Below the pieces are notes generated by a model. It did no database searches. It saw nothing but the letters and a program-made list of their open reading frames with translations, and had not been told where the DNA came from. From Evansella cellulosilytica DSM 2522 (lineage in GTDB: Bacteria; Bacillota; Bacilli; Bacillales; Salisediminibacteriaceae), in contig NC_014829.1 in NCBI RefSeq assembly GCF_000177235.2, positions 4,588,001 through 4,652,000 of the forward strand: DNA of 64,000 nucleotides, in the 5' to 3' direction. Positions 28,482-58,235 of this stretch are shown here, piece after piece. Position 1 is the stretch's first letter. Every line of letters starts with the position of its first letter. Position numbers and translations under genes: made by a program.

Positions 28482-28508
28482 TTTATATCCCTCCAAAATT
28501 ATATTAAA

Positions 28509-37685: not shown

Positions 37686-37785
37686 TATTGAGTACCTCAC
37701 TTCTTTTTGATTGTTTGATATATATTTGAATATTCAATTGTCAATTTTCTCAAATCAGTCTGTATTTTTTTGTAAAGCTCTAATG

Positions 37786-38187
37786 TTTGTATCTTTTCAA
37801 CTTCCAAAATGGAGGAGTGAAAACGAGTGAGGGAATAGAGCCCACCCCTTATAAAAAGGGTGGACAAGTTTCTTCCAAAACGGTGTCGTTCAACTCGTTC
37901 GGTCATCTTCTAAGTAGGTTAAATTCACACATAAATTAAGTTCCCAGGTCTAGCTTTACAACTCTTGCAATCACGCAATAACCTACCCCCACCTCGCCTT
38001 TCAGCGACTAGTACGGGCAATTCCTTTCAAATGTATATGAAAGGCATCTGGGTGTGTTATGAGCCTTTAACGCTTCCCACCCTGTGATTAATAGGGGAAC
38101 CAGAACCATCGAAGGTGTTTACCTTCTCCTAAACTGCTCATTTTAAATGGTTTAAAAAAGTAAAACTTTATTCAATTGTAAATGTGT
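37786..38187 (-). ncRNA. Structured RNA, copy A (about 400 nt, unassigned class)
   Basis: A second copy lies at 53420-53813. Conserved blocks include CCCAGGTCTA, CTTTACAACTCTTGCA, TAGTACGGGCAATTCCT, GAAAGGCATCTGGG and CCTTTAACGC (plus-strand spelling). Minus-strand pairings seen in both copies: AACCAU/AUGGUU; a hairpin GAAGGU/ACCUUC here and GAGGGU/AUUCUC in copy B; GUAGGUUA/UAACCUAC; UCGC/GCGA; an 8-bp 3' hairpin with a UUUUUA loop. Differences keep pairing, often as G-U on the minus strand, which fixes the direction. The 3' end is not sharply defined. Confidence 0.8.
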
Positions 38188-38193
38188 TACATC

Positions 38194-38221
38194 ATTATAT
38201 AACCAATATTTCCAAAGTCAA
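38194..38221 (-). promoter_or_regulatory. Promoter of structured RNA copy A
   Basis: On the minus strand TTGACT (38216-38221), 16 bases, TATAAT (38194-38199). Copy B has the same boxes with the same spacing and the same GGTTATATAATGATGTAACAC context, while the spacer itself differs. Confidence 0.85.
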
Positions 38222-38356
38222 ATTCGGCTCAAACCATTGATATTACTTACATTTCCCACAATAAAAAACACCGTAAACTTTTACGGTGGTGAAATTTGTC
38301 TATTATGCTTTTTCGTATTATAACTAGATATTCATATTATTTAGGAGGTTCTAATA

Positions 38357-38686
38357 ATGATAAGTAAAAAAATATATACAACCCAACAGCACTATAAAAA
38401 AGTAGTAGAAGAACTTACAATAAATCAACCTACCGATAAAATTGAAATACGTAAGAAAAGCCATTGTATCTATTTCCCTAATGGAGTAAGCATTCGTATT
38501 TTTGCAATTCAAGAAGGTACAAAAATCACTGTAGCAAAGCGACCTAACCGAAATAATCAGCATCACTTTACTGATGTAACTGATTTCGTTGAGAAGAGAT
38601 TAGGAGTTAAAAATTTAAAATTTAAAAACTTTGGAGAAATCTATTCTACCGTTTATGACAATAAGTTGTTGAGTAAAAAACAATAA
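38357..38686 (+). CDS. Hypothetical basic protein
   Basis: This 109-residue basic protein is mainly beta strands with a KIEIRKKSHCIYFPNGVSIRIFAIQEGTKITVAKRP core. Not recognised; no cysteine cluster or membrane segment. AGGAGG lies well placed before the ATG and a strong terminator follows, so it is likely expressed. It starts about 135 bases from the divergent promoter of structured RNA A, and the two could share control. Confidence 0.55.
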   Translation: MISKKIYTTQQHYKKVVEELTINQPTDKIEIRKKSHCIYFPNGVSIRIFAIQEGTKITVAKRPNRNNQHHFTDVTDFVEKRLGVKNLKFKNFGEIYSTVYDNKLLSKKQ

Positions 38687-38702
38687 TAGCCCCTTCATGT
38701 AG

Positions 38703-38745
38703 AAAAGACCCCCTAATAATTCAATCAATTATTCATGGGGGTCTT
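38703..38745. terminator. Terminator between the 38357 gene and the SieB-like gene
   Basis: AAAGACCCCC and GGGGGTCTTT pair around a 23-base AT-rich loop, with T-rich tails. It serves both converging genes. Confidence 0.88.
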
Positions 38746-38756
38746 TATTGTGTTTT

Positions 38757-39338
38757 TTACCAGTAATCTATTTGTTCTTTACTCCTATTAAACTCTTTTT
38801 CGTAGAGTGCATTATAAGCGTCATTGAAGTCTTTTAATAATCCAGGCTTATTATTTAACTCATCTACAACCCACGGATGAAGTAAATATGGAAATGATGC
38901 AGTGTTTAAATCACTAACCATATATTCTGAAGTTGCTTTTCCAATCATTATGTGTTGCTCTAATTCTAAAACAGCACCATCATGTAACGGCAACGGCAAC
39001 GTTCTGTTATCTTGTTGATATAATTCATAAATAATAGCCTTTTGATAGTTGTTTAGTTTTAGTAATCGTTTTTCGGCTGTTGCATAAAAGTCCCTCTTGG
39101 CTTTAGCATCAGAAATTGATTTTGCTATCTTGTATATTAAATTTACTATGAGAATTGATAAAGATACAATAAATACTATTCCAATAATAAAGCCATAATT
39201 ATCCCTAAAATCAATCATAAACATTTTTTCTAAAATAGTTGTTGGAGAGAAGAGAAGAATTCCACTTGCTAATGTTAATGCAGCCATTATTGTTGTTGGT
39301 AGCGTTAAAATCTCCTTAATATTAAAATCTATTTTCAT
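38757..39338 (-). CDS. SieB-like membrane protein (possible superinfection exclusion)
   Basis: This 193-residue protein has two membrane helices (about residues 10-30 and 45-70) and a soluble C-terminal domain. The layout and segments such as LASGILLFSP followed by YGFIIGIVFIVSLSILIVNLIY match the SieB family, named after a phage P22 protein that stops infection by other phages. The family match is from pattern memory and moderate. ATG at 39338 follows GGAGGG. A phage-exclusion function would fit the island, but is not shown by the sequence alone. Confidence 0.55.
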   Translation of the reverse strand: MKIDFNIKEILTLPTTIMAALTLASGILLFSPTTILEKMFMIDFRDNYGFIIGIVFIVSLSILIVNLIYKIAKSISDAKAKRDFYATAEKRLLKLNNYQKAIIYELYQQDNRTLPLPLHDGAVLELEQHIMIGKATSEYMVSDLNTASFPYLLHPWVVDELNNKPGLLKDFNDAYNALYEKEFNRSKEQIDYW

Positions 39339-39525
39339 AATACCCTCCGTAAAATAAACATTCAATTTCCTTAATTGGTACTATTAATTATACATTATTG
39401 TAAGCAATCATACTGCCAACAATATATAAGTTTAATGCTATTATTAATCAAATTTGACTTATTAAAAATCCATAATAAGATGTTACTACAATAAAACATA
39501 AATGATTATTAAGGAGTAGAGACTA

Positions 39526-39597
39526 ATGGGAATTTTTAATAATAAGCAAGCAAAATTTGATACGCAGCATAGGAGTACCTTATATGGCAGTAATTAA
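39526..39597 (+). CDS. Leader peptide of the RuvC-like operon (23 residues)
   Basis: The frame has a good AAGGAG site 9 bases before its ATG and encodes MGIFNNKQAKFDTQHRSTLY plus three residues. Its stop codon lies 11 bases after the next ATG (39584), so the two genes overlap and are probably coupled. Too short for a predicted function; it could be a translational coupling device. Confidence 0.45.
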   Translation: MGIFNNKQAKFDTQHRSTLYGSN

Positions 39598-39820
39598 TCA
39601 ACTAAGCCTTCTTGCTGTTATTCAACTACCTAATCAATCAATGGTGAAGTATTTATTCTATGATGCTAAGCATGTAGAAGCTAAGAATAATAAACCAGAA
39701 GAATATGATTTTCAAATCCCTGAATTAGATGAATTAGAAGAAATGTTTTATCAGGAGTTACTTGCTGAAAATACATATAATGAAGTCGATTATGAACAGT
39801 TATTCTGGGGTGACATCTAA
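39584..39820 (+). CDS. Small acidic protein in front of the RuvC-like nuclease
   Basis: This 78-residue protein starts with a hydrophobic beta region (AVINQLSLLAVIQLPNQSMVKYLFYDAKHVEA) and ends strongly acidic (ELDELEEMFYQELLAENTYNEVDYEQLFWGDI). ATG at 39584 has AGGAG 8 bases upstream and overlaps the leader frame. Its TAA overlaps the ATG of the nuclease gene (TAATG), so the two are made together and may form a complex. Not recognised. Confidence 0.6.
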   Translation: MAVINQLSLLAVIQLPNQSMVKYLFYDAKHVEAKNNKPEEYDFQIPELDELEEMFYQELLAENTYNEVDYEQLFWGDI

Positions 39821-40332
39821 TGCCTCGGCTGTTATCACTCGACCAGTCAATCACTTCCTGCGGTTATTCCATATTCGAAATACATAATAATCAATCCGAA
39901 CTGATTGATTACGGAACGATTAAACTTAATACCAAATTAGATTATTTCGAAAGGATAATCTGCTTAGAAAATATATTAAATGAAATGGTAAAGGATTATA
40001 ATATCAAACTTGCAATTGTAGAAGATATCCAAAAGCATAGAGGAACTGGACTAACGACATACAAGAAATTATCTTCCTTATTATTCTTTCTACAATACTT
40101 CTTTTATTATAGAAATATTGAATGCCAAGTTGTCCACGTTAACACTTGGCGAAACGGTTATAGGAACGTTTTTGGATTACCACGAATCAACAAGGATATA
40201 GTATATGAGCATATATTTAACATCTTAGGAGAACCTTCCGACTTTGATAATCATCAAAGTGACAGCATAGCAATGGGGTTATTCCACTGTCATCATAATC
40301 TAGTCTTAAGAAATGGATTATTTAATTTATAG
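39820..40332 (+). CDS. RuvC/RNase H-fold nuclease (Holliday junction resolvase-like)
   Basis: The 170 residues fit the RuvC-like fold with acidic residues in the expected order: Asp8 in LSLDQSITSCGYSIFE, Glu68 in LAIVEDIQ, and Asp148 in HQSDSIAMG. This pattern is typical of Holliday junction resolvases, including short phage and mobile-element versions. It may cut branched DNA during movement or replication of the island. Its start overlaps the stop of the small acidic gene (TAATG). Confidence 0.75.
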   Translation: MPRLLSLDQSITSCGYSIFEIHNNQSELIDYGTIKLNTKLDYFERIICLENILNEMVKDYNIKLAIVEDIQKHRGTGLTTYKKLSSLLFFLQYFFYYRNIECQVVHVNTWRNGYRNVFGLPRINKDIVYEHIFNILGEPSDFDNHQSDSIAMGLFHCHHNLVLRNGLFNL

Positions 40333-40500
40333 AATATAGACATTAACCACTATTATCTTAGTAGATATCGGTGGTTTTTTAGCATTCCTTTCCACATAAA
40401 AAAATATTTTTTTAAAAAAACTAGAGCTTGAGACCCATACCCATAATTGGTATAATTATCCTGCAGTAAAAGTAAAAGAATAATAGAGAGGATGTTGAAT

Positions 40501-40773
40501 ATGTTGTTTAATGGTCTTTCAGATACATTCTTAGAAAACTTTGCACTTATTTACGGCTTAATATGTATTCTAATTTCTTCAATATATTTGGTTAACCTTC
40601 ACTTCTATTCAAAATTGGTCTATACAAACCCTTCCCAGTTTTCAGCAGATAGGCTTACAAAAGATATTAAACGAATTCTTTTAAAAAAGTATGGAGATAA
40701 AATGAACTACACTCATTCACACCTTTTTATAAATGACCCTCTTATCTATAAAAGACTTCAAAGAACATTTTAA
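40501..40773 (+). CDS. Small membrane-anchored protein
   Basis: This 90-residue protein has one long membrane helix (FALIYGLICILISSIYLVNL, about residues 12-31) and a basic soluble tail with LTKDIKRILLKKYGDKMNYTHSHLFINDP. The ATG at 40501 is chosen since GAGAGG lies 9 bases before it. Not recognised; single gene in an AT-rich stretch. Confidence 0.5.
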   Translation: MLFNGLSDTFLENFALIYGLICILISSIYLVNLHFYSKLVYTNPSQFSADRLTKDIKRILLKKYGDKMNYTHSHLFINDPLIYKRLQRTF

Positions 40774-41240
40774 TACCTTTCTAATTAAGACTAATGTAAA
40801 AACTCCTTTTTAATAATATTTTAGACTTAGAATATCTTGTCTAATTTTTTTAGTATTTTTGGTTATTTGTACTTTTTTTTAATGTATACACATACTTTTT
40901 TATATTATTTAATCTATACATTTCTCCTTTGTTATTAATAACTACTTTATAAATGAGCATTCAAGTAAAATTTATGTATATTCAATCTTAAGTAGCTTGG
41001 TTATCCAAAGCATCAATAAATACCTTCTGTTGTTCAATATAATGAATATATCTTTTTGTTATATTTGTTATTACCAATCGGTCCATAATTACCAATGGAT
41101 ACTTTCTATTTTTTCTAACATATATATCATATATATAAGCTATATCGGAGCTGAATGAGAATTATATATTATATTGTTTAGCCTTTACACAATTACAGAT
41201 CATTGCTAGAATCGGACCACATTATTTTAGGGGTGGGATT
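40774..41240. other. AT-rich intergenic stretch
   Basis: Very AT-rich, with short repeated ATATAT tracts near 41120-41140. No gene is supported. Confidence 0.5.
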
Positions 41241-41546
41241 ATGAGGAAATACGCTTTTTACTGCTATGGAGATACTCAGGAATTTTTGGATTACTATTTT
41301 TTAAATCTATTTTTTTTCGCAATTGAAGAGTTATCTTTAGATATTAATGATTGTGTGTTTTTTACAGATACTCGAGGGTCTTTTAAAGAAATGTTTAAAT
41401 TAGTGGGTAACTTAGAGGAAATACAATGCCTTGTTGTTCCAAGTATGAAACATTTTCGAGACTATGATGAACTGTGTTCCCTATTCATAGATAATGGTAT
41501 CTATGTTATTGATATTTCAAAGGAGGATTGTTGCTTTCAATACTAA
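41241..41546 (+). CDS. Hypothetical small protein
   Basis: This 101-residue protein has alternating strands and helices (a start with YAFYCYGDTQEFLDYYFLNLFFFAIEEL; an end with YDELCSLFIDNGIYVIDISKED). The pattern of a short Rossmann-like or resolvase-like core is vague; I cannot name it. AGGGGTGG precedes the ATG. Its end overlaps the next reading frame, and an AAAGGAGG lies near its stop, so a second product is likely translated from the same message. Confidence 0.5.
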   Translation: MRKYAFYCYGDTQEFLDYYFLNLFFFAIEELSLDINDCVFFTDTRGSFKEMFKLVGNLEEIQCLVVPSMKHFRDYDELCSLFIDNGIYVIDISKEDCCFQY

Positions 41547-41934
41547 TATTTATGTTGGTAAATTTGATTATACTATAAATAGAATAATAGTTATGTTTTT
41601 AGGGCTCGGATTCCTAGCAATATTTTTATATCTAGAACATTCAAAGATTAGTGTACCTTTAGTTATATCACTCACACCAGCTACAGTAGCATTTTTGCTC
41701 TATTTCAATTTGATAATTAATGAAAAGTGTTCTTTTGTAGAGATTCATAATAAAGGGAAAAAAGTGATATATAATAAAACATATTTATTTGGGCTAATAC
41801 AAATTAAAAAAACGCTTGGATATACAGGAAATTACATGAATGAAATCTTAAGTTTTTATGATAATGAAAAGAACTTTTCTATTGATTGTATTAATGATTT
41901 AGTTAGTGCAAAAGTTATTTTTAATAGAGATTAA
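41494..41934 (+). CDS. Small membrane protein, start uncertain
   Basis: The frame encodes two membrane helices (IIVMFLGLGFLAIFLYLEH and VPLVISLTPATVAFLLYFNLII) followed by a soluble beta domain (KGKKVIYNKTYLFGLIQIKKTLGYTGNY). The listed start overlaps the previous gene; a perfect AAAGGAGG at 41518 has no standard start codon at a good distance in this frame, so the true start may be further in, near 41590. Function unknown. Confidence 0.45.
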   Translation: MVSMLLIFQRRIVAFNTNIYVGKFDYTINRIIVMFLGLGFLAIFLYLEHSKISVPLVISLTPATVAFLLYFNLIINEKCSFVEIHNKGKKVIYNKTYLFGLIQIKKTLGYTGNYMNEILSFYDNEKNFSIDCINDLVSAKVIFNRD

Positions 41935-42011
41935 TCTATATACGATATATAGCATATATACTTTACCTTTACTATTATGGATATATCTTAATTATTTGTT
42001 AGCCCTTAGAA

Positions 42012-42042
42012 AAAAGTAGGAGGCTCACTTCCCCCTACTTTT
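42012..42042 (-). terminator. Terminator at the end of the type I restriction operon
   Basis: On the minus strand AAAAAGTAGGGGG pairs with CCTCCTACTTTTTTC around a short loop. It overlaps the end of hsdR and also serves the converging small genes. Confidence 0.85.
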
Positions 42043-44948
42043 TAGTAATACTCTTTGATATAGTTATAGGCTTTTTCAAAGAGTTCCTGATCCTTATGCA
42101 ATTGGTACTTTGCTAATGTTTTTCTAAGGGCTCTCTTTACTTCACGTTCTCCAGCATTAGTATTTTGCCAACCATCAAATCTTACAACATTAACAATACT
42201 ATCAATGTCATTTACGATTCTTTCAACAATGATGTGGGTTTTTTGAGACTTAATATCATTAAATAATTCTGTTAAAGCCGCTTTACCTGTCTTTACATCT
42301 TCATTCAGGTCTGTTTCTTTTTCAGCCCTTAGTACTTCTTTAGCTAGTTCCAAGAGTTCCTTTAAGAAATTTAAACTAGTCTTAAAATTCTCTTCATATT
42401 TTTCTTTTAATTCTTCAAGTTTTTGTGCTAATTCTTTAAACCTAGAGTTTTTATTAATGTTTCTTTTAATTCTTGCCGATATCTTAAACTCAATCTCTTT
42501 CACTTTTTGAGAATCTTGGTTTTTAAGAACTTCTTCAACTAATTCCTCATCTAAAACAATCTCTTCTAAATTATCCTCAATTTCTGAAACATGTATATTA
42601 CGATTAATGATATCCATTGTTTTTGGTCCAAGCGTATGCCAAACTAATGCTCCTTGACCACTTGAGGGTTTAACTGATTCATATACTTGAGAAAGCCATC
42701 TGTAATCGCCTTTATATTGGTTTAAAACTGGATTGGGAGAGATAGCTTCCCATAGTTTAGACAAATAAGAAAAGTCCGAAGCAAACTGATCTCTAGTTTC
42801 ATTATTAGGTAAACATTCTTGAGCTCTTATTAGTCCCTCATACCCTTCAAGATTTCGGTCAATATCTTGAAAATATGATAACGATTTATCTAGTGCTACT
42901 GGGAACTCCTTTATATATTCATCGATATTTTCAATAACTTTTTTCATTGAATTTTGGTCAAAGTTTAGCGCCTTACCAACCTCATCAAAAACTCCTATAT
43001 AATCAACAATTAGACCAAATTCTTTATCTTTATATACTCGGTTCGTCCTACAAATTGCTTGTAATAGTGTATGTTCTTTTAAAGGTTTATCTAAATACAT
43101 TGTCTGCAATATAGGAGCATCAAATCCAGTTAATAATTTTGCAGTAACAATAAGAACTTTTAAAGGGTGTTCCTCTATGTTGAAATTATCTAATACTTTT
43201 TTCTCTTCGTCTGGGGTACGGTCATAATTTTTATATTCTTCTTCCCCACTATTAACAGTCATTACAATTTCACAGGCATCTTTACCTAATAATCTGTCTA
43301 ATTCTTCTTTATACTTAATACAGCATTCTCTATCATAACAGACCACCATTGCCTTAAACTTATTGGGTTCAATAATCTCTTTATAGTGATTTGCTATATC
43401 TTTACTTACCATCTCTATTCTTTCAGGTGCTTTAACGAAGGTGGATACTCTTCCTGCTCGTTTTATTAGTTCCTCCCTTTCTAAATCACCAATTGTATCT
43501 GTTAAGTTATCAAACTCTTCCTTCATAGTCTCTTTATCAATATGTAACCTTACCAGACGTGGCTCAAATTTTAATTTTCTTGTTGCCCCATCCTTTATCG
43601 AGTCCTCAAAAGAATATTTACTCATATACCCTTGTTCATCAACTTCAGCACCAAAGGTGGCAAATGTATTTCTATCACGCTTGTTAATAGGAGTTCCTGT
43701 TAGTCCAAAGAAAAATGCATTTGGTAAAGCATTTCTCATTTTAATACCCAAATCTCCCTCTTGAGTACGGTGTGCTTCATCTACTAAGACAATGATATTT
43801 TCTCTATCATTAAGGACTTCTTCCACTTCTTTAAATCTAAATATTGTTGTTATTATTATTTTACGTGTATCTTGGATTAATAACTGTTCTAAACTACTGA
43901 TTGTTTTAGCAGGGACCATATTTGGAACATCCGCTGAGGAAAATGTTCCTGTTATTTGTGAATCCAAATCCTTCCTATCTACAACTATTAAGACAGTCGG
44001 ACTTTTTAACTTCTCGTGCATACGTAATTTTAACGCTGCAAATAACATTAATAATGATTTTCCTGAACCTTGAAAGTGCCAGATTAATCCTTTCTTTATC
44101 TTACCATTCACTACACGTTCTACAATCTTATTAACAGTGTCATATTGTTGAGAACGACATATTACTTTTATTCTTCTTTTTTTATCATCAGTAGTAAATA
44201 TCACAAAGTTTTGCAATAGATCTAGTAATACTCTTCTATTCAACATTTCCTTAATAGGAAATTGTAATGCAGACAGCTCTGAATGCTTTCCTTTATTAAA
44301 ATCTCTCCAAGGGAACCATTTATTGATTGGTGATTTGACTGTCCCATACCTAAACTCTTTTCCATCAGTAGCAAAATTAAATACATTGGAGACAAAAAGT
44401 TCTGGAACGTTGTTTTCATAATCCTCTGAGATTTGCTTTGCACCATCAACCCAAGAGATTGCTGGGCGAACAGGTGTTTTACACTCACCTATAACTAGAG
44501 GAATTCCGTTAACTAAAAGGTACAAATCTGTTCTTCGACTTTCTTGAGTTTTAAACTTATACTCTGTAGTTACTATAAATTCATTATTTTTCACAACGTC
44601 AAAGTCAATTAGTTTCACGGGAACATGTTCATTGTTTCTCCCAAATGGCATAGACTTTTCACCTCTAAGCCATTTGGAAAACTCTTCATTTGCTCTAACT
44701 AAACCTTCATATTTTACACTTAACACAATGGCTCTTAATTTATAAATTACTTCATCAGCACGACTCGGTTCTGCTTTTATTTCTGGATTTAATTTTTTTA
44801 GTGCATTTACTAAATGTTCTTCAATAAATGGATTATTCAATTCTCGATTAAATTTATTAGAGGGAACGAACTTCCAACCATTTTCAACAAGTAAATCTCT
44901 GATGTAATCTCTAACAGAATTTCCTTCATTGAACTTGCTTACAGACAT
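42042..44948 (-). CDS. hsdR: Type I restriction enzyme, R subunit (HsdR)
   Basis: This 968-residue motor-nuclease is the cutting subunit of the type I complex. The N-terminal nuclease domain has RTDLYLLVNGIPLVIGECKTP (motif E-x-K, about residue 155). Helicase domains follow, with Walker A HFQGSGKSLL (about 292), DEAH box VLVDEAHRTQ (about 392) and GLTGTPI (about 415), then a helical C-terminal part that docks to HsdM. The length is normal and there is no break. AAAGGAGGG precedes the ATG; it is last in the operon, 20 bases after hsdS. Confidence 0.96.
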   Translation of the reverse strand: MSVSKFNEGNSVRDYIRDLLVENGWKFVPSNKFNRELNNPFIEEHLVNALKKLNPEIKAEPSRADEVIYKLRAIVLSVKYEGLVRANEEFSKWLRGEKSMPFGRNNEHVPVKLIDFDVVKNNEFIVTTEYKFKTQESRRTDLYLLVNGIPLVIGECKTPVRPAISWVDGAKQISEDYENNVPELFVSNVFNFATDGKEFRYGTVKSPINKWFPWRDFNKGKHSELSALQFPIKEMLNRRVLLDLLQNFVIFTTDDKKRRIKVICRSQQYDTVNKIVERVVNGKIKKGLIWHFQGSGKSLLMLFAALKLRMHEKLKSPTVLIVVDRKDLDSQITGTFSSADVPNMVPAKTISSLEQLLIQDTRKIIITTIFRFKEVEEVLNDRENIIVLVDEAHRTQEGDLGIKMRNALPNAFFFGLTGTPINKRDRNTFATFGAEVDEQGYMSKYSFEDSIKDGATRKLKFEPRLVRLHIDKETMKEEFDNLTDTIGDLEREELIKRAGRVSTFVKAPERIEMVSKDIANHYKEIIEPNKFKAMVVCYDRECCIKYKEELDRLLGKDACEIVMTVNSGEEEYKNYDRTPDEEKKVLDNFNIEEHPLKVLIVTAKLLTGFDAPILQTMYLDKPLKEHTLLQAICRTNRVYKDKEFGLIVDYIGVFDEVGKALNFDQNSMKKVIENIDEYIKEFPVALDKSLSYFQDIDRNLEGYEGLIRAQECLPNNETRDQFASDFSYLSKLWEAISPNPVLNQYKGDYRWLSQVYESVKPSSGQGALVWHTLGPKTMDIINRNIHVSEIEDNLEEIVLDEELVEEVLKNQDSQKVKEIEFKISARIKRNINKNSRFKELAQKLEELKEKYEENFKTSLNFLKELLELAKEVLRAEKETDLNEDVKTGKAALTELFNDIKSQKTHIIVERIVNDIDSIVNVVRFDGWQNTNAGEREVKRALRKTLAKYQLHKDQELFEKAYNYIKEYY

Positions 44949-44968
44949 CTCAACATCCCTCCTTTAAA

Positions 44969-46213
44969 TTAAACTTTTGCTATATTATTTTGATAAAACT
45001 TTGGGTCAAAAAGGAAAATAAGCAATTCTTCTTTAACCTTTTTGGTATTCTTTATGTTACTTTCAATATTTGAGATAACATTTTCTAGACCATCAAGTAT
45101 TTCAACAATTTTTCTCTGTTCTGTTAATGGTGGAATTCCTATTTTGAACCCTTCTAAAAATTCCTTTGGAACCCTTTTCTGTCCCGCAGATCCCGTCATA
45201 TTCCACTCACCTAAAGTCCTAAATAACTTGTTTGTTGTGTGATAGTAGATATATTTGGGGAGGACTTCATCCTTAGCCCGAAGTATATGAAATTCCGTGC
45301 TCCCAAAACCTATAGAATTTTTTAAATTTTGAGCCAATGCTCCTTTACCATTTTCGAAGCAAGGTGTTATTTTTGCTACTATAACGTCATTTTCTCTAAA
45401 TGATGTAAAACCACTAGAAACCTCAGAGTATTTTCGTTCCCTTAAGTTAATTATCTTAGCGTCATTTGATATATCTTCCATAGTAAGAAAAGATATTTCT
45501 GTATCAGTATCCGCTATTTTTTCTTTCTGAGGATTAATATTACAAACATCATCGATTCTTTTTAATTCCCAATCTTTTGGAATTTCCCCGATGGATGATG
45601 GCTTATAATTAGAATGATTTACCCCTCTTGTTAATAGCTTATTAACTAATTTTTCTTTATATTTTAATGTTTTCTCTAACAATATCTCCTTACAATTAAT
45701 ATTGTCTTCAGTTGCATTCAGTTTTTCTATGATATCTCTTTGAATATTTTTAGGAGGTATAATGAATTTTTCCTCTGCTAACACCTTCCATTTGATAGTA
45801 GGTGATAAAGAACCTTCTGATATTTTAAGTGATCGATTATAAAATTCTTGTGATTGCATAAAAAATGGTAGTAATTCTTTAATAATTACTTCTTCTTGTG
45901 CTCGTAATACCATTGAGTGCGCTGATACAATAGCGTCCCACTCACATATTGCAACCTTACCTTGATACGCTCTTCTTTTCCCAAAAATAATGTCACCTGG
46001 TTTAGCCACTAATTTAGTTCCTTGAACATCTTCAGGGGTTCCGTGCCTTTTTATCTTAAGAGTTTTAGAATCTAGGTGCTCTAATCCAATGTAATATTTT
46101 AGTTTTGTTTCCTTTGGTTCAACTCGTTTTGAAATGTGTTCAGCCATTAGTTTAAAAGGAACTAAACGCCATCCATCACCAAGTTGAATAATATCCCCTT
46201 TCTCTTTTATCAC
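44969..46213 (-). CDS. hsdS: Type I restriction enzyme, specificity subunit (HsdS)
   Basis: This 414-residue subunit reads the target DNA through two target recognition domains: the first about residues 10-150, the second beginning GEIPKDWELKRIDDVC at about 210. Each is followed by a conserved helix (QRDIIEKLNATEDNI and EQRKIVEILDGLENVI) that sets the spacing between half-sites. Both halves are complete. The GTG start overlaps the hsdM stop (GTGA) and has AGGAGG upstream. Only this one hsdS is seen, so no inverting partner exists in the window. Confidence 0.93.
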   Translation of the reverse strand: MIKEKGDIIQLGDGWRLVPFKLMAEHISKRVEPKETKLKYYIGLEHLDSKTLKIKRHGTPEDVQGTKLVAKPGDIIFGKRRAYQGKVAICEWDAIVSAHSMVLRAQEEVIIKELLPFFMQSQEFYNRSLKISEGSLSPTIKWKVLAEEKFIIPPKNIQRDIIEKLNATEDNINCKEILLEKTLKYKEKLVNKLLTRGVNHSNYKPSSIGEIPKDWELKRIDDVCNINPQKEKIADTDTEISFLTMEDISNDAKIINLRERKYSEVSSGFTSFRENDVIVAKITPCFENGKGALAQNLKNSIGFGSTEFHILRAKDEVLPKYIYYHTTNKLFRTLGEWNMTGSAGQKRVPKEFLEGFKIGIPPLTEQRKIVEILDGLENVISNIESNIKNTKKVKEELLIFLFDPKFYQNNIAKV

Positions 46214-47676
46214 TTAAATGATACCTCCTGAACCAATTTAAAAAGTTCTGTAAAAGAGTCGTCTATACTTGAACTATCGATTTGATACTCTTCTACAGTT
46301 TCATTAATTGTAAAATTTTTATATTGCTTGTTATCTATTACATACAAAGGAATGTTTAGATTGGCATTATTTTTCAACACTTCATCAACCTCAACTACAT
46401 TTGAAAAACCGTTTATACTCTTAAATTCATCATATACACCTTTTATTTCTTCGATATGTTCAGGGTCTATATAACTCATTGTTCTTTCTCTTCGAACTTG
46501 ATTGATAGCATTAATAAATAATATTTTCCCTTTTCTATCTTCTTTTTTATTTGTTCTACAAAATATTACACAGGCTTCCATTGGGGAATTATAGAATAAG
46601 TTTGAACCTAGCCCTAAAATACACTCAATAACATCACTTTTTACTAAGTTCTCTCTCATTTCTTGTTCTGCATCCCTAAATAACACACCATGTGGAAATA
46701 ATATTGCACATCTTCCAGTATCTGCTTTCAAACTCTTAATAATATGTTGTAAAAAGGCATAATCCGCTCTTGATTTTGGTGGAGTACCATATATGTTACG
46801 TCCATAAGGATCTGTTTCCCACCTCTCACGGTTCCATCTTTTAATTGAATATGGAGGATTAGCTAGTACAATGTCAAATTGCCTTAATTTATCATTCTTA
46901 ATAAATGCTGGATTTTCTAGTGTGTCACCCCTTAATATTTCAAAGTCCTCTATTCCGTGTAAAAACATATTCATTTTAGCTATTGAGGATGTAATTAAGT
47001 TTATTTCTTGCCCAAATAATCTTAAGCTTCTATACTCTTTCCCTTTTTCCTTTAAGTGTAGTGCTGAAAGTAACAGCATCCCCCCACTACCACATGTTGG
47101 GTCATAAACACTCTCTTTGGGATTGGGTTCCAACAATTCAGTCATCAGTCTTACGATTGTTCTATTTGAATAAAATTCTTGTGCAGTATGCCCACTATCA
47201 TCAGCAAATTTCTTTATTAAATACTCATAAGCTTGTCCTAATTCATCCTCCGACACATTTTGAAGTGATAAAGTTTGCTGTGAGAAATGTTCAATTAAAT
47301 CTTTTAATAATGAATCAGGCAATCTATCTTTATTCGTCCACTGTGCATCACCAAAAATGCCTTCTAACCTACCAATGTTTGCTTTCTCTATTTCAGCCAT
47401 TGCAGTTTGAATAGCTGTTCCTATATTATTTACTTTCTTCCTAATATCGTTCCAGTGATGACCTTTTGGAATAATAAATCTATGATTTTCGTCGAAATCC
47501 TCACCTAATGTATTAAGCGAATCATTATATTCTTCATCATAAACATCGCATAATCTCTTTAGAAATAATAACGGGAAAATAAATTGCTTATAATCTCCTG
47601 CATCAATATGACCTCTTAGAAAATTTGCAGAACCCCATAAATACCTCTCTAGCTTTTCTAAAGATATTCTACCCAC
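46210..47676 (-). CDS. hsdM: Type I restriction enzyme, methyltransferase subunit, second copy (HsdM)
   Basis: This 488-residue adenine methyltransferase subunit has SAM motif DPTCGSGGMLL and catalytic NPPY. It is a clear paralogue of the next gene upstream, with matching blocks throughout (FIIPKG-HW, FGDxQW, YEYLIKKFAD, NIPLYV). It differs at the usually invariant AGEFYTP, here AQEFYSN, a region close to the cofactor. Both catalytic motifs remain, so it may be active or may have become a structural partner in a mixed M1M2S enzyme. GTG start 3 bases after the previous stop. Confidence 0.93.
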   Translation of the reverse strand: MGRISLEKLERYLWGSANFLRGHIDAGDYKQFIFPLLFLKRLCDVYDEEYNDSLNTLGEDFDENHRFIIPKGHHWNDIRKKVNNIGTAIQTAMAEIEKANIGRLEGIFGDAQWTNKDRLPDSLLKDLIEHFSQQTLSLQNVSEDELGQAYEYLIKKFADDSGHTAQEFYSNRTIVRLMTELLEPNPKESVYDPTCGSGGMLLLSALHLKEKGKEYRSLRLFGQEINLITSSIAKMNMFLHGIEDFEILRGDTLENPAFIKNDKLRQFDIVLANPPYSIKRWNRERWETDPYGRNIYGTPPKSRADYAFLQHIIKSLKADTGRCAILFPHGVLFRDAEQEMRENLVKSDVIECILGLGSNLFYNSPMEACVIFCRTNKKEDRKGKILFINAINQVRRERTMSYIDPEHIEEIKGVYDEFKSINGFSNVVEVDEVLKNNANLNIPLYVIDNKQYKNFTINETVEEYQIDSSSIDDSFTELFKLVQEVSFK

Positions 47677-47679
47677 AGA

Positions 47680-49137
47680 TTACACATCCATTTCTTTTAA
47701 AAAACTGTTTAATACATTCTCTGACTCATTAGTTTCCTTTAATGCTTGGACCATTTCATTATATGCTTGCTCTAATGATATTCCGTCGTCCTCTATAATT
47801 GGCTTTACATAAAGTGGAATGTTTAAATTAAAATTATTAGATTTAATATCATCAAGAGTTGCTATACTGGTCTTTCCTTTTGTAGTATTGTATTCATTAT
47901 AAAGTTTAAAAATCTCGTTAACATGCTCTAATAATAATGTATTTTGATTTCTTTCTTTTTTAAATAATTGTGATGCATCTATAAATTGTACTTTCCCTTT
48001 TCTATCTACGGGTTTATCTTTTCTGAAAAATAAAATACAAGCAGATATATTTGTTCCGTAAAATAAGTTTGGTGCTAATCCAATAACAGTATCTAATAAA
48101 TCCTGTTGAAGTAATTCCCTTCTAATTTTACCTTCTGCCCCAGCTCTAAATAAAACACCTTGGGATAAAACCACAGCCATACGTCCAGTGTACATTTCCA
48201 TAGACTTAATCATATGTTGCACCCAAGCGTAATCTCCATTTGTTTTTGGTGGAATGCCAGCTATATTCCTTCCATAAGGGTCATCTTTCCATTCTTCATA
48301 CCCCCAACTTTTCAAGGAAAAAGGTGGATTCGCAATAACACAGTCAAAGGTCATTAGCTTATCCTCTTCAAAGTATGCAGGATTTTTAAGAGTATCATTT
48401 CTTACAATTTTAAAATCCTCTAAACCATGTAAAAACAAATTCATTCTTGCTATAGAAGAAGTTGTAAGGTTCTTTTCTTGACCATAAAGTTTTAAAGTCC
48501 TAGCATCTCTACTCGTATCATTCAAATGATCTACTGCCTCCAACAACATCCCACCCGTTCCACAAGCTGGGTCGTAAATACTCTCATTTTCTTCAGGATC
48601 TAATAGCATTGTCATTAACTTTACAATTTCTCTAGGAGTATAAAACTCTCCTGCCTTCTTATTTGCAACATCAGCAAATTTTTTTATTAAATATTCATAT
48701 GCCTGTCCCATTGTATTTGATTTTACGTTTTTATTCCCTAAGTTATATTGGGAAAAATGCTCAATCAATTCTATTAGTATTTCATCAGTTAATTTATCTT
48801 TATTTGACCATTGTGTATCACCAAAAATACCATACAAGCTCTCAGGATTTGCCTTTTCTATTTCCCTTATTGAACTTAAAATTTTTATACCTACATTTTT
48901 AGTAACACTTCTAACCTCATTCCAATGGCAACCTTTTGGTATGATGAATCTATGTTCTTCATCAAAATCCTCTCCATAAATTTCCATAGATTCTTGGAGT
49001 TCTTCATCGTATACATCAGATATCCTTTTAAAGAATAACATTGGAAATATGTATGATTTAAAGTCGGATTGATCTACAGGTCCCCTAAGAATATTTGCTG
49101 CTCCCCATAACCAAGATTCCAGTTCTTCTAATTTCAT
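47680..49137 (-). CDS. hsdM: Type I restriction enzyme, methyltransferase subunit, first copy (HsdM)
   Basis: This 485-residue subunit carries the canonical AGEFYTPREIVKLM, DPACGTGGMLL (SAM binding) and NPPF (catalytic) motifs, plus the N-terminal helical domain seen in HsdM. It is first in the operon hsdM-hsdM-hsdS-hsdR. It is about half identical to the second hsdM by eye. The usual type I complex has two copies of one HsdM per HsdS, so two different HsdM proteins may pair as a heterodimer. The start has only a weak ribosome site. Confidence 0.95.
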   Translation of the reverse strand: MKLEELESWLWGAANILRGPVDQSDFKSYIFPMLFFKRISDVYDEELQESMEIYGEDFDEEHRFIIPKGCHWNEVRSVTKNVGIKILSSIREIEKANPESLYGIFGDTQWSNKDKLTDEILIELIEHFSQYNLGNKNVKSNTMGQAYEYLIKKFADVANKKAGEFYTPREIVKLMTMLLDPEENESIYDPACGTGGMLLEAVDHLNDTSRDARTLKLYGQEKNLTTSSIARMNLFLHGLEDFKIVRNDTLKNPAYFEEDKLMTFDCVIANPPFSLKSWGYEEWKDDPYGRNIAGIPPKTNGDYAWVQHMIKSMEMYTGRMAVVLSQGVLFRAGAEGKIRRELLQQDLLDTVIGLAPNLFYGTNISACILFFRKDKPVDRKGKVQFIDASQLFKKERNQNTLLLEHVNEIFKLYNEYNTTKGKTSIATLDDIKSNNFNLNIPLYVKPIIEDDGISLEQAYNEMVQALKETNESENVLNSFLKEMDV

Positions 49138-49349
49138 CTCTATTTCTTCCTTCCTAGGTCATTTCAACGAATTAATAAACATCTTTTTAATCTTTGTCTT
49201 TATAAATATAATAACACAATGTATATTACAAATTTTACTATACTAATAATTGGCATTACTTCCTATAGGTTGCTGGACACATAATTATTATTAAGTGGCT
49301 AGTTCTTTTTGAAAACTTGGTTTTTGGTGCTAAAATTTAATGTTCTCAT

Positions 49350-49387
49350 CGTATAACACTATAAAAAAACTGAGCGTATAACACTAT
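49350..49387 (+). repeat. Two 13-bp direct repeats before the tyrosine recombinase gene
   Basis: CGTATAACACTAT occurs at 49350-49362 and 49375-49387, a 25-base period. It lies in the divergent region between hsdM and the recombinase gene and just before the latter's ribosome site, so it may be an operator or arm-type binding site. Confidence 0.65.
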
Positions 49388-49408
49388 TTAAAGGGAGTGG
49401 TTTCACAA

Positions 49409-50284
49409 ATGAATTATTTAAAGGGTTTTAATAATTATTTAGAGGACATGGATAAAAGTGAAAGGACTATTGTTAGTTATCTAAACACTATTTCTCAATT
49501 TTCAAATTGGTTAATCAAAGAAAAGTTTATAGATGATTTATCAATAGTGGCAACCAGAGAAATTAAAGCATACAGACAAATATTATTAGAAAAGTATTCT
49601 CCAGCTACTGTAAATCAGAAATTAGCCTGTATCAAAACGTTTTATAAGTTTATGACACAAACACATATTATAAAAGAAGACCCTGCAAAATATATTAAAC
49701 TACAAAAAGTTGATAATATAAAAAGTCAATATATGACTAGAGCAGAAGAGTTAAGAGTAATGAGTAAAGCTAAAGAAAAGGGAATCAAAGCATATGCCAT
49801 ACTAATGGTTTTACTAAAATGTGGTTTGCGCCCAAGTGAATTAAGTAGCCTTACATTAGATTGTCTATTTTTAGATAAGGAACCTACTCTTTTAGTAAAG
49901 GATTCTAAGAGAAACAAATCTCGCTATGTTCCAATTCCAATGGATACCTGTAAAGCATTAAATGCTTGGATAGACGAAAGAAATAAATCAGATAAGATAT
50001 ATCACACCCGAAGTAAGTATGTTTTTACTTCTCAACGTCAGGATAGATTAGAGGTACGTGCTATTCAAAGGGTAGTTGAAGTGATTGGAATAGAGGCTGG
50101 GGTCGAACTATATTGCATTAGGCTTCGTGCTACTTATGCTAACTCTTTAATCCAGAATGCTAATATTCCTTTAAGTGCACTTGCAACGTTAATGGGACAC
50201 GATAGTATTCAAACTACTAGTCGCTATACCACTATCAACGAACAAGATAAGAGACGTTATGTTAATTCAATTTCTGAAATATAA
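49409..50284 (+). CDS. Tyrosine site-specific recombinase (XerC/D-like)
   Basis: This 291-residue recombinase has an N-terminal core-binding (SAM-like) domain (YLNTISQFSNWL, RQILLEKYSPATVNQKLACIKTFYKFM) and a catalytic domain with Arg in KCGLRPSELSSL, Lys in KDSKRNKSRYVPI, LRATY (second Arg), LMGHDS (His) and the nucleophile in TTSRYT. The first His of the usual H-x-x-R box is replaced by Ile. It is divergent from the hsd operon; in other bacteria such genes invert hsdS, but only one hsdS is present here. ATG at 49409 follows AAGGGAG. Confidence 0.88.
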   Translation: MNYLKGFNNYLEDMDKSERTIVSYLNTISQFSNWLIKEKFIDDLSIVATREIKAYRQILLEKYSPATVNQKLACIKTFYKFMTQTHIIKEDPAKYIKLQKVDNIKSQYMTRAEELRVMSKAKEKGIKAYAILMVLLKCGLRPSELSSLTLDCLFLDKEPTLLVKDSKRNKSRYVPIPMDTCKALNAWIDERNKSDKIYHTRSKYVFTSQRQDRLEVRAIQRVVEVIGIEAGVELYCIRLRATYANSLIQNANIPLSALATLMGHDSIQTTSRYTTINEQDKRRYVNSISEI

Positions 50285-50293
50285 GCTAATTAA

Positions 50294-50325
50294 AAGAGCA
50301 CCTATACAAGTGGGTGCTCCTTTAT
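50294..50325. terminator. Terminator after the tyrosine recombinase gene
   Basis: AAGAGCACC and GGGTGCTC pair around a nine-base loop, followed by CTTTATACTTT. It lies between two converging genes. Confidence 0.8.
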
Positions 50326-50333
50326 ACTTTCAT

Positions 50334-52289
50334 TTATCTCTTTCTACATGACGGGCAAAAAGTTCTTGTTAAAAGATGGTCACTTCGGATCTGCCACTCA
50401 TATCCACAACTGATACATTGCGCCGTTACTTTTTCTCTACTTGAAATGTATTTTAGTACATTAATAGCATTATTAGATTTTTTTAATATTTTTTGCTTAT
50501 AAGCTTCAGCTCGTGAAACCTTATTATCTACCTTCAAGTCTCTCGAATTATTTATTGCTTTTTTAGAGGCTTTTCTTTTTTTCTTAACTTTAGGTAATTT
50601 TTTTGCAAGTAATTTTTCTACCCAAGAATTATTACTTAATCTTTCATTCAACATACAAAGTTCTAAGCATCTTTGCGATTCTGAAGCACCAACACTAAAT
50701 CGAGTATCTTCAACAACTAATTGTTGAATTTCTTCCAAAACAGCTGATAATTTTACCAACTTTTTATTTTTTATCGTGTAATCGTTAATCCCATGCTTGT
50801 ATTCAGCTAGAACAGAAATAAAAGAGTTGTCTATTTCATTATTTATTATACTAGAAACTTTAAACCTTTCTTTCTTTATAGCCCAAAAATCATAGTAATC
50901 TTTTTCAATATATTCTATGCCAGACTGACAATTTCTTGTAGTTTCATTATCAATATAATGATTCACTTCTATTTTATTTCCTTCATTATCTATGTAACAA
51001 TAATCAAATCTAATAATAAAAGGTTCCTTACTGTATTCAACACTTTTATTAATGGCATTATTTGATATGTATATATTAATATGACATGTGTTCAATAAAT
51101 CATTTTCTTCGTTTATTTCTATTACAAAATGGTTTGACCTAGCTCTTAAAGAAAAAGATTCAAAGTGATGTGAAGGAAAAATTAATTTGTATCTTTCTGG
51201 TCTCATTGTATCTTCGTTATTTAAATATATGTCCAAAATTTCTTGATAAGGAATATTCTTATTTTCTTTTTCTTCTAATTTTTTGTTTACAACTTTAATT
51301 TGGTTATCAAAAATCTTATAAAAATTTAATTTACACTTTTTTGATTTAAGATACTTATGGAAAAGTTCTTTGTACTTAGGGTTAGCTTTATACTCTATAC
51401 TATTTATAAAATTATTAATTGCTTCCTCGCTATAGATGTTCATATCTACAAATTTTTCGCTAATCAACCTTTTCAGCAAGTCTAATTCCTCATTAAATTG
51501 TTCTCTAGCGACTTTATACACTTCATATAATTTATTTTTCTTTTCATTCAATTTTTTTATTTCTTCAAAATTAGGTATGTATCGTTCACACAATTCATTG
51601 AGCTTTAGATTTACTTCTTCAAACTTTAATAATATGTCACTATCTAAATGTTCTTTGTCTTTCAATAAAGAGATATCTTTTGGTACCGAATGTTCAAAAT
51701 TAAATTTTGTAAATCCATATTCATAATAAGTGGCTATATTATTAACATCCTCCAGTAATATCCTCAAATAATCCCTTATTTCCGATTGTGAATCTGAAAA
51801 ACGCAACTTAAACTGTTTAAGTAAAGAATTCAGTTGATTAAATCCAAAAAATGCGGGTAATAATCTTTGAAAATATTCCTCTTCTTTTCCATCTAACATT
51901 TCTTCTTCTACCTCTTCTAAGACAATCATATGAAAGTCTTGTAGAGAACAATCATGTTCTAGCATATATTTAAAAATTTTACACGCTTTAAACTTACCTT
52001 CATAAAAAGATCTAGTTTTAGAAAAGAAATATTTGTTATATTCCTCATAAGAAAGTCTATTCAAAGCCAGTATTTCAGTAAAATGTTGTTTATATCTTCT
52101 TTGTATATCCTTTGCTTGTCCTATATAAATGGGGACAATTTCCTCTGAAGTAAAATGGTCAATGTAAATCATATAGATGCCTGATATATTATGTTTTGTT
52201 TCTGGTGTAACTTCTCTATATAAATTCTCCTGTAATAGGTGTCTAACTTGGGATTTTATATTATCGATTGTTCTTCCCCCGTTATCCAT
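50334..52289 (-). CDS. GIY-YIG nuclease-domain protein with C-terminal zinc finger
   Basis: This 651-residue protein starts with a GIY-YIG nuclease domain: GIYMIYIDHFTSEEIVPIYIG, then the Arg in KDIQRRYKQH, and a candidate catalytic Glu in KEEEYFQRLLPAFFGFNQLN. A long charged coiled-coil and beta region follows (about 180-560). The last 40 residues form a treble-clef-like zinc finger, CISCGYEWQI...FCPSC. The nuclease-plus-zinc-finger layout suggests site-specific DNA cutting. It lies beside the hsd operon in a defence-rich island. ATG at 52289 follows GGAGG. A defence role is inferred. Confidence 0.75.
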   Translation of the reverse strand: MDNGGRTIDNIKSQVRHLLQENLYREVTPETKHNISGIYMIYIDHFTSEEIVPIYIGQAKDIQRRYKQHFTEILALNRLSYEEYNKYFFSKTRSFYEGKFKACKIFKYMLEHDCSLQDFHMIVLEEVEEEMLDGKEEEYFQRLLPAFFGFNQLNSLLKQFKLRFSDSQSEIRDYLRILLEDVNNIATYYEYGFTKFNFEHSVPKDISLLKDKEHLDSDILLKFEEVNLKLNELCERYIPNFEEIKKLNEKKNKLYEVYKVAREQFNEELDLLKRLISEKFVDMNIYSEEAINNFINSIEYKANPKYKELFHKYLKSKKCKLNFYKIFDNQIKVVNKKLEEKENKNIPYQEILDIYLNNEDTMRPERYKLIFPSHHFESFSLRARSNHFVIEINEENDLLNTCHINIYISNNAINKSVEYSKEPFIIRFDYCYIDNEGNKIEVNHYIDNETTRNCQSGIEYIEKDYYDFWAIKKERFKVSSIINNEIDNSFISVLAEYKHGINDYTIKNKKLVKLSAVLEEIQQLVVEDTRFSVGASESQRCLELCMLNERLSNNSWVEKLLAKKLPKVKKKRKASKKAINNSRDLKVDNKVSRAEAYKQKILKKSNNAINVLKYISSREKVTAQCISCGYEWQIRSDHLLTRTFCPSCRKR

Positions 52290-52757
52290 ACGCTCCCCTC
52301 CACTTAACATAATATTATTTAAAGTACATTCTATATATTTCTTATCTCAATAAATTTACTTGAGACTTATTAATTCAATATACAGTTACGGTTAGTGTAT
52401 CAAATTGTTAATAAAAGATATACCTTGGGGCAAAACATAGGACTTTGAGTATTGCGGACAATAGAGCCCATGAGTGCGGGTGAGTGAGCCACTTGTGTAG
52501 CTTATAAATGAGGTTTGTTCATAAGCACCTCCCAAACCCACATGTTACAATAAGTAATAAGAACCCAATTTGCCAAAAGAGGGATCAAAATGGGTTCTTA
52601 TCGAGCAGATATAAGATTGTTTTTTCAAAAAAAGATTGATTGTTTCGGAAAGCGAATATACTATAGCACCCAAAATAGTAAGCAAAGAAAGAAATAATAA
52701 AAAATCTTAACCAACTATATTGAGGTCGGTCTATTCTTAATACTTCTGTTATTTTAG
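52290..52757. other. Intergenic stretch with 22-bp repeat units
   Basis: No gene seen. It contains the first group of GAGCC-type units at about 52451-52514; the rest shows no feature. Confidence 0.5.
52451..52514 (+). repeat. 22-bp degenerate direct repeats, group 1
   Basis: GAGCC starts units at 52464 and 52486 (period 22), with TTGCGG/GTGCGG in fixed positions, and a weaker GAGG at 52510. The same unit type recurs at 53224-53330. Confidence 0.65.
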
Positions 52758-52946
52758 TTAACGTCCATTTTTGTCCCAGTCGTCATACGAATCAAAATTA
52801 TGATTAGGATCTACAAAGTCTCTTCCAGCTTCCATTAAGCTGCTAGCACATCCTTTGCAGAGAGACTCACCATCTACCAGTAATTCTGAATCGAGTTGAT
52901 TTTTGGAGAATTCTCCTCCACACTCGTTACAAATATACTTTTTCAT
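52758..52946 (-). CDS. Small zinc-ribbon protein
   Basis: This 62-residue protein has two cysteine pairs, CNEC near the N-terminus and CKGC near residue 35, which should form one zinc site, followed by an acidic tail (DFVDPNHNFDSYDDWDKN). AAAGGAGG lies 6 bases before the ATG at 52946, an excellent ribosome site that rules out the longer frame. It stands alone between two groups of 22-bp repeats. Function unknown. Confidence 0.65.
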   Translation of the reverse strand: MKKYICNECGGEFSKNQLDSELLVDGESLCKGCASSLMEAGRDFVDPNHNFDSYDDWDKNGR

Positions 52947-53223
52947 AAGTTTCCTCCTTTTCCAATTTAAATTGCGTATCAAAATATTGATTATCCAGCA
53001 ATAGTAAATTAGCTTTTAATGAGTTGCAATTATAATACAATACTTACATTATTCGGACAACTATGAATTTATCTACTATAAATTATGTAAATTCAGTTTA
53101 CACTGAACTACTTAAATATGTAAGCCTTTTACAACGAAAAACCACTATTTAAGAGTTTAACCCGAAGTTGATAATTGAAATGACTCCTTCTCTAAATTAT
53201 TTCCAATGTATAGCATTAGAAAA

Positions 53224-53335
53224 GCCTGATTATTATTGCGGCTGAAGAGAGCCACTTGTGCGGAGTTTTGAGCCATTGATTGCGTAAGATAGAGCCGCTG
53301 TTTGCGGATGGGAGAGCCAGTTATATAAATAAGAA
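53224..53335 (+). repeat. 22-bp degenerate direct repeats, group 2
   Basis: GAGCC occurs at 53249, 53270, 53292 and 53314 (steps 21, 22, 22), each followed by a TTG(T/A)TTGCGG-like block: GAGCCACTTGTGCGGAG, GAGCCATTGATTGCGTAAG, GAGCCGCTGTTTGCGGATG, GAGCCAGTTATAT. Same orientation as group 1 about 780 bases to the left. Iteron-like in spacing, but no replication initiator gene is near. Confidence 0.7.
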
Positions 53336-53419
53336 CAACCACTTTTAGAATAAGAATTGCGAATCTATACCCCCTTGGTTTTTTTATCTAGAGGGTGATT
53401 CACTAAGTATTTTTATTTA

Positions 53420-53813
53420 TAAACTCCAAAATGGAGAAGGAGGAATGAGGGAAGGACAGATCTACCCCCTAAAAAGGGGCAGAGAAAAACTGTTCAAAAC
53501 GGATATAGTTATCACTCAGTCAGTCATTTTTAGTAGGTTAAATTAACACACAATATTAATTAAGTCCCCAGGTCTAACTTTACAACTCTTGCATCACTGC
53601 AATAACCTACCTCTACCTCGCTATTAGCGATTAGTACGGGCAATTCCTCTCAAAATAATCTTGAAAGGCATCTGGGAAAACTACTAGCCTTTAACGCATC
53701 CCACCCTCCTGATTAAGAGGGGAGCCAGAACCATTGAGAATATTTCACCCTCTCCAAAACTGCCTATTTTATATGGTTTAATAATTATTTTTCTATTCAA
53801 TTTTCAATTGTGT
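53420..53813 (-). ncRNA. Structured RNA, copy B (about 395 nt, unassigned class)
   Basis: Homologue of the RNA at 37786-38187, with the core (about 53531-53715) most conserved. Pairings on the minus strand: AACCAU/AUGGUU; GAGGGU/AUUCUC; CCUUUCAA/UUGAGAGG, where one pair is G-U only on this strand; UUGCA/UGCAA closing a GUGA (GNRA) tetraloop; GUAGGUUA-type long stem around it; CCCAG/CUGGG long range; and the 8-bp 3' hairpin UCUGCCCC/GGGGGUAGA with a U-rich loop. CUCC-AUUUU-GGAG then a U/A-rich run may end the transcript. Confidence 0.8.
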
Positions 53814-53819
53814 TACATC

Positions 53820-53847
53820 ATTATATAACCGTTTTTTTTGAAGTCAA
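53820..53847 (-). promoter_or_regulatory. Promoter of structured RNA copy B
   Basis: On the minus strand TTGACT (53842-53847), 16-base spacer, TATAAT (53820-53825). Boxes, spacing and the start region are the same as for copy A although the spacer sequence differs. Confidence 0.85.
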
Positions 53848-58212: not shown

Positions 58213-58235
58213 CATCACTTGTGATACGGTTCACC
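58213..58235. other. Right attachment site (attR) in rlmH
   Basis: Contains the last codons of rlmH (GGT GAA CCG TAT CAC AAG TGA on the minus strand). Compared with the left site, one base differs on each side of the shared GAACCGTATCA. After excision the rlmH end would read CAT instead of CAC, still His, so RlmH is unchanged. Confidence 0.85.

Follow-up and report, generated by a model that had tools for sequence, protein, structure and literature searches.

EGFOA RNAs with a Double-Pseudoknot Core Are Associated with Serine-Recombinase Mobile Elements in Bacilli

The window examined in this work is a stretch of 64,000 nucleotides from Evansella cellulosilytica DSM 2522 (contig NC_014829.1, positions 4,588,001 to 4,652,000), and all window coordinates given below count from its first letter. 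Its minus strand carries two copies of a long noncoding RNA gene, and both of these are EGFOA RNAs, members of a known orphan family and not of a new class. The core of the RNA is a double pseudoknot, and genes of this family are found on unrelated mobile elements, many of which encode a large serine recombinase. Taken together, the data lead us to favor the reading that EGFOA genes specify an independently transcribed, trans-acting RNA of ∼390 nt that belongs to the backbone of the mobile element and acts as a stable folded RNA or ribonucleoprotein (RNP) in the life cycle of that element, which we consider probable.

Identity and architecture of the RNA

A cmscan search against Rfam 15 matches both copies to the full RF02955 EGFOA model, which has 108 positions and a gathering cutoff of 37.7 bits. 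The core of copy 1 (37912 to 38057, minus strand, model positions 1-108) scores 72.6 bits (E = 3.9e-11) and that of copy 2 (53531 to 53681, minus strand) scores 59.2 bits (E = 4.1e-8). In each case the core is matched end to end with the same stems, and the conserved GUAAAG...ACCUGGG loop is present in a 5-bp stem, as it is in EGFOA. Between 37 and 54.5 kb, no Rfam model other than EGFOA, and thus none of raiA, ROOL, GOLLD, OLE, and HEARO, gave a match with E values up to 1. The first-pass annotation of this DNA had described an RNA of no recognizable class and had reasoned that a strong Rfam match would make it known rather than new; such a match was obtained for both copies, and RF02955 now takes the place of that description. 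The family reportedly stems from the surveys of candidate structured RNAs carried out in the Breaker laboratory. No paper that names the EGFOA RNA was found in the literature searched.

What is new relative to the Rfam model is the full-length architecture together with two long-range covarying helices inside the core, PK1 and PK2, which the Rfam structure line leaves unpaired. In copy 1, the 5′ arm of PK1, CCCAG (38048 to 38052, minus strand), pairs with CUGGG (37947-37943). Over 36 loci, 97.2% of the pairing cells in this helix are paired and 32 of the 36 helices are full, with the compensated forms CUCAG/CUGAG, CCUAG/CUAGG, and CCCAU/AUGGG among them. PK2 joins CCGUN-[NNNN] to GUAAAG-[NNNN]-ACCUGGG through a 4-bp helix, for which 13 distinct 5′ arms occur among 37 loci; it is 98.6% paired with 35 of 37 helices full, while the best of 2000 shuffles reached 75% and 13 full helices. 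The window copies themselves differ by a compensated change in PK2, where CUAG (38008 to 38011, minus strand) pairing with CUAG (37953-37950) in copy 1 becomes CUAA (53631 to 53634, minus strand) pairing with UUAG (53577-53574) in copy 2. The stem that closes the GUAAAG-NNNN-ACCUGGG loop, P1, is GAGUU/AACUU in copy 1 (37938 to 37964, minus strand), and it is 98.4% paired with 23 distinct 5′ arms. Because MAFFT misaligned the variable left part of the 38 cores, the arms were first extracted at conserved anchors and the pairs in them were then counted. The shuffles carry no correction for relatedness, but for PK2 and P1 the outcome is unchanged when only distinct combinations are counted.

Significant covariation, which the first-pass annotation had named as support for a structured RNA, is thus found for PK1, PK2, and P1 over 36-37 loci. 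The strong evidence for such an RNA is the Rfam match together with covariation at ∼37 loci; by itself, the folding energy (copy 1, z = -2.5; copy 2, z = -0.9) is weak evidence. On the strand that bears the promoter, 26 cells hold G-U and 3 hold A-C, which points to the minus strand, as RNA, being the functional molecule. The three stems that had been described as compensated between the copies are all present in the sequence. The proposed GNRA loop, UUGCA-GUGA-UGCAA, holds for copy 2; copy 1 has UUGC-GUGAUU-GCAA in its place, and another genome, G276, has a similar six-base loop.

Conserved structure continues beyond the Rfam model for ∼130 nt upstream and ∼105 nt downstream of the core, so that the window RNA is longer than the model on both sides. 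The upstream part contains a hairpin of the form NNN-GUURRAG-NNN, whose 3 bp are fully paired at 20 of 30 loci (shuffle maximum, 12), and a further 5′ domain lies beyond it. In copy 1 this hairpin is AGC-GUUAAAG-GCU (38062 to 38074, minus strand), the loop of which would fit a UUNRA T-loop. The downstream 3′ domain has a terminal hairpin. The idea that this 3′ hairpin is a mere flank was rejected, since all three close copies have kept it.

Gene boundaries and promoters

On the minus strand, the two window regions align over ∼390 nt, from the -10 box to a common ATTTTGG, with 76.6% identity. There is no conserved open reading frame (ORF) in these regions, and the sole ORF of at least 60 aa that enters copy 1 (37697-37906, minus strand) is without a counterpart in copy 2, so that the earlier description of two real noncoding minus-strand copies holds. 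Conservation in copy 1, copy 2, and a third, independent copy in another genome (G276a), taken with the consensus fold, places the RNA genes at 37806 to 38194 (copy 1) and 53424 to 53813 (copy 2), both on the minus strand. The transcript of copy 1 is predicted to run from ∼38188 to ∼37806, and the ends given for copy 2 are likewise predicted. A recent duplication as the origin of the two window copies was rejected, as they are 76.6% identical to each other and 78.2% and 78.7% identical to G276a.

Each gene is preceded by a TTGACT-16-TATAAT promoter that matches at 11 of 12 positions (38194 to 38221 for copy 1 and 53820 to 53847 for copy 2, both minus strand). The spacer sequences differ between the two, as the first-pass annotation had observed, and G276a has identical promoter hexamers, the same spacing, and the same distance to the RNA. 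Immediately upstream, both window promoters have a strong terminator-like hairpin (38288-38269 for copy 1 and 53922-53888 for copy 2), and because this hairpin precedes the promoter, each RNA gene looks insulated from upstream transcription. An own promoter is a trait of the subfamily to which the window copies belong. A general sigma-70 promoter upstream of all EGFOA genes was rejected, since convincing examples were confined to copies 1 and 2, G276a, and some phage contigs (L013, L012, and L057). At five other loci (L159, L162, L165, L166, and L167), EGFOA is without a sigma-70-type promoter, and a TTAAC-like element followed ∼17 nt later by CGTATA resembles a promoter of the extracytoplasmic function (ECF) sigma type, although the pattern is not significant overall. 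A CGTATA box shared upstream of EGFOA and the recombinase was also tested and was not significant.

Association with serine-recombinase elements and phages

About 40 EGFOA genes were gathered from genomes and viral contigs. The searches relied on covariance models and patterns, since BLASTN with copy 1 against plasmid and phage records gave no matches. An exact 17-base motif gave 8 matches in genome contigs, none of them EGFOA, and most matches to looser patterns in viral contigs were due to chance. In samples that each include the window genome, EGFOA is present in 9 of 397 genomes of the same order, 12 of 300 of the class, and 2 of 398 of the phylum. Across 23 EGFOA-bearing genomes, a large serine recombinase lies within 3 kb of 13 of 29 EGFOA copies (0.17 expected) and within 20 kb of 20 of 29 (1.15 expected), where the expected values are those of random placement, a control that ignores the fact that EGFOA and recombinase both sit in mobile DNA. 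We found no report of this association in the literature searched.

Small elements with defined ends do allow for this shared location. Seven elements of 4.7-9.7 kb are delimited at both attachment (att) ends by the repeat CATGTGGAG or a close variant, which corresponds to the HVE-motif codons close to the 3′ end of a gene for a TrmA-family methyltransferase (PF05958, RlmCD-like). All seven (L161:2627-7412, L163:7643-15068, L157:7005-13900, L158:6415-16131, L166:7878-14351, L167:8301-12986, and L199:2023-9401) hold both EGFOA and the recombinase, with the 3′ end of the recombinase gene towards the att site; the recombinase is whole in some and truncated or interrupted in others. In several of these elements, one or two small helix-turn-helix genes (HTH_17, excisionase-like) stand directly before EGFOA. 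The other genes differ among the seven, and this cargo is mostly antiphage: TIR, NO-VEIN-domain, and caspase proteins, an AAA-ATPase resembling that of a Toprim-type defense pair, type II restriction-modification (RM), a nucleotidyltransferase with an IS21-type insertion, and HamAB with a TIR protein. Because the recombinase and EGFOA are constant while the cargo varies, EGFOA behaves as backbone and not as cargo. L163 has another recombinase immediately beyond the right end, and its elements are thus in tandem.

The association is also seen from the side of the protein. When one such recombinase was used as bait and the RNA was ignored, EGFOA genes were recovered in two further genomes, G1207 and G1209, the latter of which holds one of the seven delimited elements. 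Over 18 loci, the similarity of the recombinases tracks that of the RNAs (rho 0.47, Mantel p 0.001). Several observations weigh against a strict coupling of this kind. Host phylogeny may explain part of the Mantel correlation, and EGFOA or a remnant of it lies within 1.5 kb on either side at only ∼8 of 28 related recombinase loci, so its presence is not obligatory. Several EGFOA loci (G323, G353, G505, G807, and one copy in G398) have no recombinase on the contig, and among the ∼40 loci there is no constant protein partner except mobility genes. An empty site was sought once, for the G1209 element, and was not found; the flank is present in relatives, and the sole match that reaches the junction (G1180) shows the apparent end of another element.

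The orientation of EGFOA relative to the recombinase is divergent in G1010, G985, G1046, and G955 and codirectional in G954, G971, and G1209. Some regions hold several copies, such as G103 with three in 63 kb and G1116 with two that are 11.7 kb apart and each beside a recombinase fragment, and G954 has two tandem recombinase elements; multiple copies at one site are likely to result from the stacking of successive elements. In G954 (L187), an EGFOA remnant consisting of the 5′ part only, below the Rfam threshold, lies on the opposite strand upstream of the recombinase. EGFOA is found beside Rhs/wall-associated repeat protein genes in three genomes (L044, L159, and L162), two of which have recombinase fragments there.

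Phages carry the RNA as well. In viral contigs EGFOA lies beside terminase, major head protein, DNA polymerase, and ParA-like genes, and no serine recombinase was seen nearby. Recurrence on mobile elements, a further kind of support named by the first-pass annotation, is thus seen on both serine-recombinase elements and phage contigs. Three of the viral contigs (L138, L144, and L087) look GC-richer than the Bacilli loci, which suggests that the family may reach beyond Firmicutes.

Both window copies lie inside an SCC-like element of 31 kb, which is inserted in rlmH and has clear att ends. The left att repeat, GAACCGTATCATAAGTGA (26900 to 26917, minus strand), differs from the 3′ end of rlmH at 1 of 18 positions, and the right repeat, GAACCGTATCACAAGTGA (58215 to 58232, minus strand), is that 3′ end itself. 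The consensus at both ends is GAACCGTATCA(C/T)AAGTGA, and no third repeat was found in the window. The insertion site, rlmH, encodes a SPOUT methyltransferase (58215 to 58694, minus strand; PF02590, E = 4.6e-62). The large serine recombinase (26904 to 28496, minus strand), which has Resolvase, Recombinase, and Zn_ribbon_recom domains and its stop codon at the left end of the element, is the only PF07508 protein found in a search of the 4.68-Mb genome. The original picture, in which a mobile island contains a long and complex structured RNA that is apparently transcribed independently, is supported by the sequence evidence. Both SCC and ECC cassette chromosomes insert at the 3′ end of rlmH and have flanking repeats, a large serine recombinase, and variable cargo (PMC6222049, PMC10061031). 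The window element shares the rlmH 3′-end insertion, rlmH-matching repeats, a large serine recombinase, and variable cargo, but it differs in carrying EGFOA and in that no helicase or CcPol-type gene was found by Pfam among the ORFs scanned, the only helicase match being a type I restriction subunit. The replicative helicase operon that precedes the recombinase in SCC was likewise not found by Pfam, although a divergent helicase could be missed. A report of an RNA of this kind on cassette chromosomes was not found in the literature searched.

A similar rlmH element in G276 carries a likely ortholog of copy 1 with the same neighbors, together with a second, divergent EGFOA. In the rlmH elements of both the window (at copy 1) and G276 (L030), EGFOA is accompanied by two conserved genes, one of 109 aa (38357-38686 in the window) and one of 170 aa that belongs to the RuvC family (39820-40332 in the window). 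The window element also contains a tyrosine recombinase (49397-50284), which adjoins a type I RM operon with two hsdM genes (46210-47676 and 47680-49137), and an ABC-three-component (ABC-3C) defense module of the PDC-M68-like type between EGFOA copy 2 and rlmH (54056-57002). A short MazF/PemK-like protein (34284-34571) has homologs in the EGFOA regions of G276 and G103.

Possible roles of EGFOA

In the mechanism that we favor, the gene's own promoter would give rise to an RNA of ∼390 nt in which the double-pseudoknot core is flanked by 5′ and 3′ domains. In Bacilli this RNA would be part of the backbone of site-specific serine-recombinase cassettes, made up of the recombinase, often two small helix-turn-helix genes, and EGFOA, instead of being exchangeable cargo, and it would be carried by phages too. 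Its product, a stable folded RNA or RNP particle, would serve the life cycle of the element in the host, be it in establishment, in maintenance, or in an excised or induced state. Action in trans is suggested because the downstream genes differ and can be convergent and because the orientation to the recombinase varies. That the molecule may work as a folded RNA or RNP particle is proposed by analogy with GOLLD and ROOL, which are large, pseudoknotted, noncoding RNAs of unknown function that are borne by phages and prophages and have no constant protein partner (PMC12286853). EGFOA resembles them in all of these structural and genomic respects but has no sequence or Rfam relation to either, is ∼390 nt long as against 659 to over 800 nt, and is linked to elements with a serine recombinase; no tRNA gene is present in the window.

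A more specific proposal is that EGFOA is a direct part of the serine-recombinase module, an RNA that would control or assist excision, integration, or establishment together with the recombinase and its small helix-turn-helix partners. Such direct involvement in recombination would be attractive, but the copies found in phages speak for a more general function, and we regard it as rather improbable. Were it to hold, EGFOA would be, to our knowledge, the first structured RNA in a serine-recombinase system.

The RNA might instead be a defense, antitoxin, or antidefense RNA, that is, a cargo gene that happens to stay near the recombinase. The neighboring cargo is mostly made up of antiphage systems and the phage-borne copies could serve in counterdefense, but EGFOA keeps its place near the recombinase in elements that differ in their cargo, and the lack of a constant protein partner makes this explanation unlikely as well. 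Another proposal is that EGFOA primes replication of the excised circle as an RNA-based origin, which would explain its presence on small elements without an obvious replication gene. It fits with the many replicon types in which EGFOA occurs and with the finding that no replication protein is present among the ORFs scanned in the small TrmA-site elements, and RNA-based origins are described for extrachromosomal mycobacterial prophages (PMC7157519). However, EGFOA also occurs in phage contigs that have their own DNA polymerase (L013), and its structure is conserved well beyond the needs of priming, so we find this distinctly unlikely.

One could also imagine a leader or riboswitch that acts in cis on the downstream gene or on the recombinase, as copy 1 lies ∼100 nt ahead of a gene in the same direction (37242-37700) and nothing like a terminator stands between the two. 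The genes downstream of copies 1 and 2 differ, however, no substantial gene lies close to copy 2, and several relatives face a convergent gene; together with the varying orientation to the recombinase and the promoter that EGFOA has for itself, this makes a cis role quite improbable. It is very improbable that the functional molecule is structured single-stranded DNA, such as a transfer origin, a single-strand origin, or a recombination site: folded single strands are used by mobile elements and copies recur in one element, but the excess of G-U over A-C, the conserved sigma-70 promoter on the same strand in three loci, and the location of the att sites elsewhere all speak for RNA. A guide RNA for the RuvC-like nuclease encoded near copy 1 and G276a is scarcely credible in spite of the conserved gene pair in G276, since the RuvC-like gene recurs only in the two rlmH elements, no variable guide-like segment was seen, and the size and Pfam match of the protein are those of a Holliday-junction resolvase.

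These findings tie an orphan RNA family to a defined small mobile element, with its recombinase, att sites, and length of 4.7-9.7 kb, and so give EGFOA a testable biological setting. From the double-pseudoknot core and the full-length boundaries, experimenters can see which molecule they should make and what they should alter in it. For the SCC-like elements that spread antiphage systems among Bacilli, the findings add a noncoding component to the backbone.

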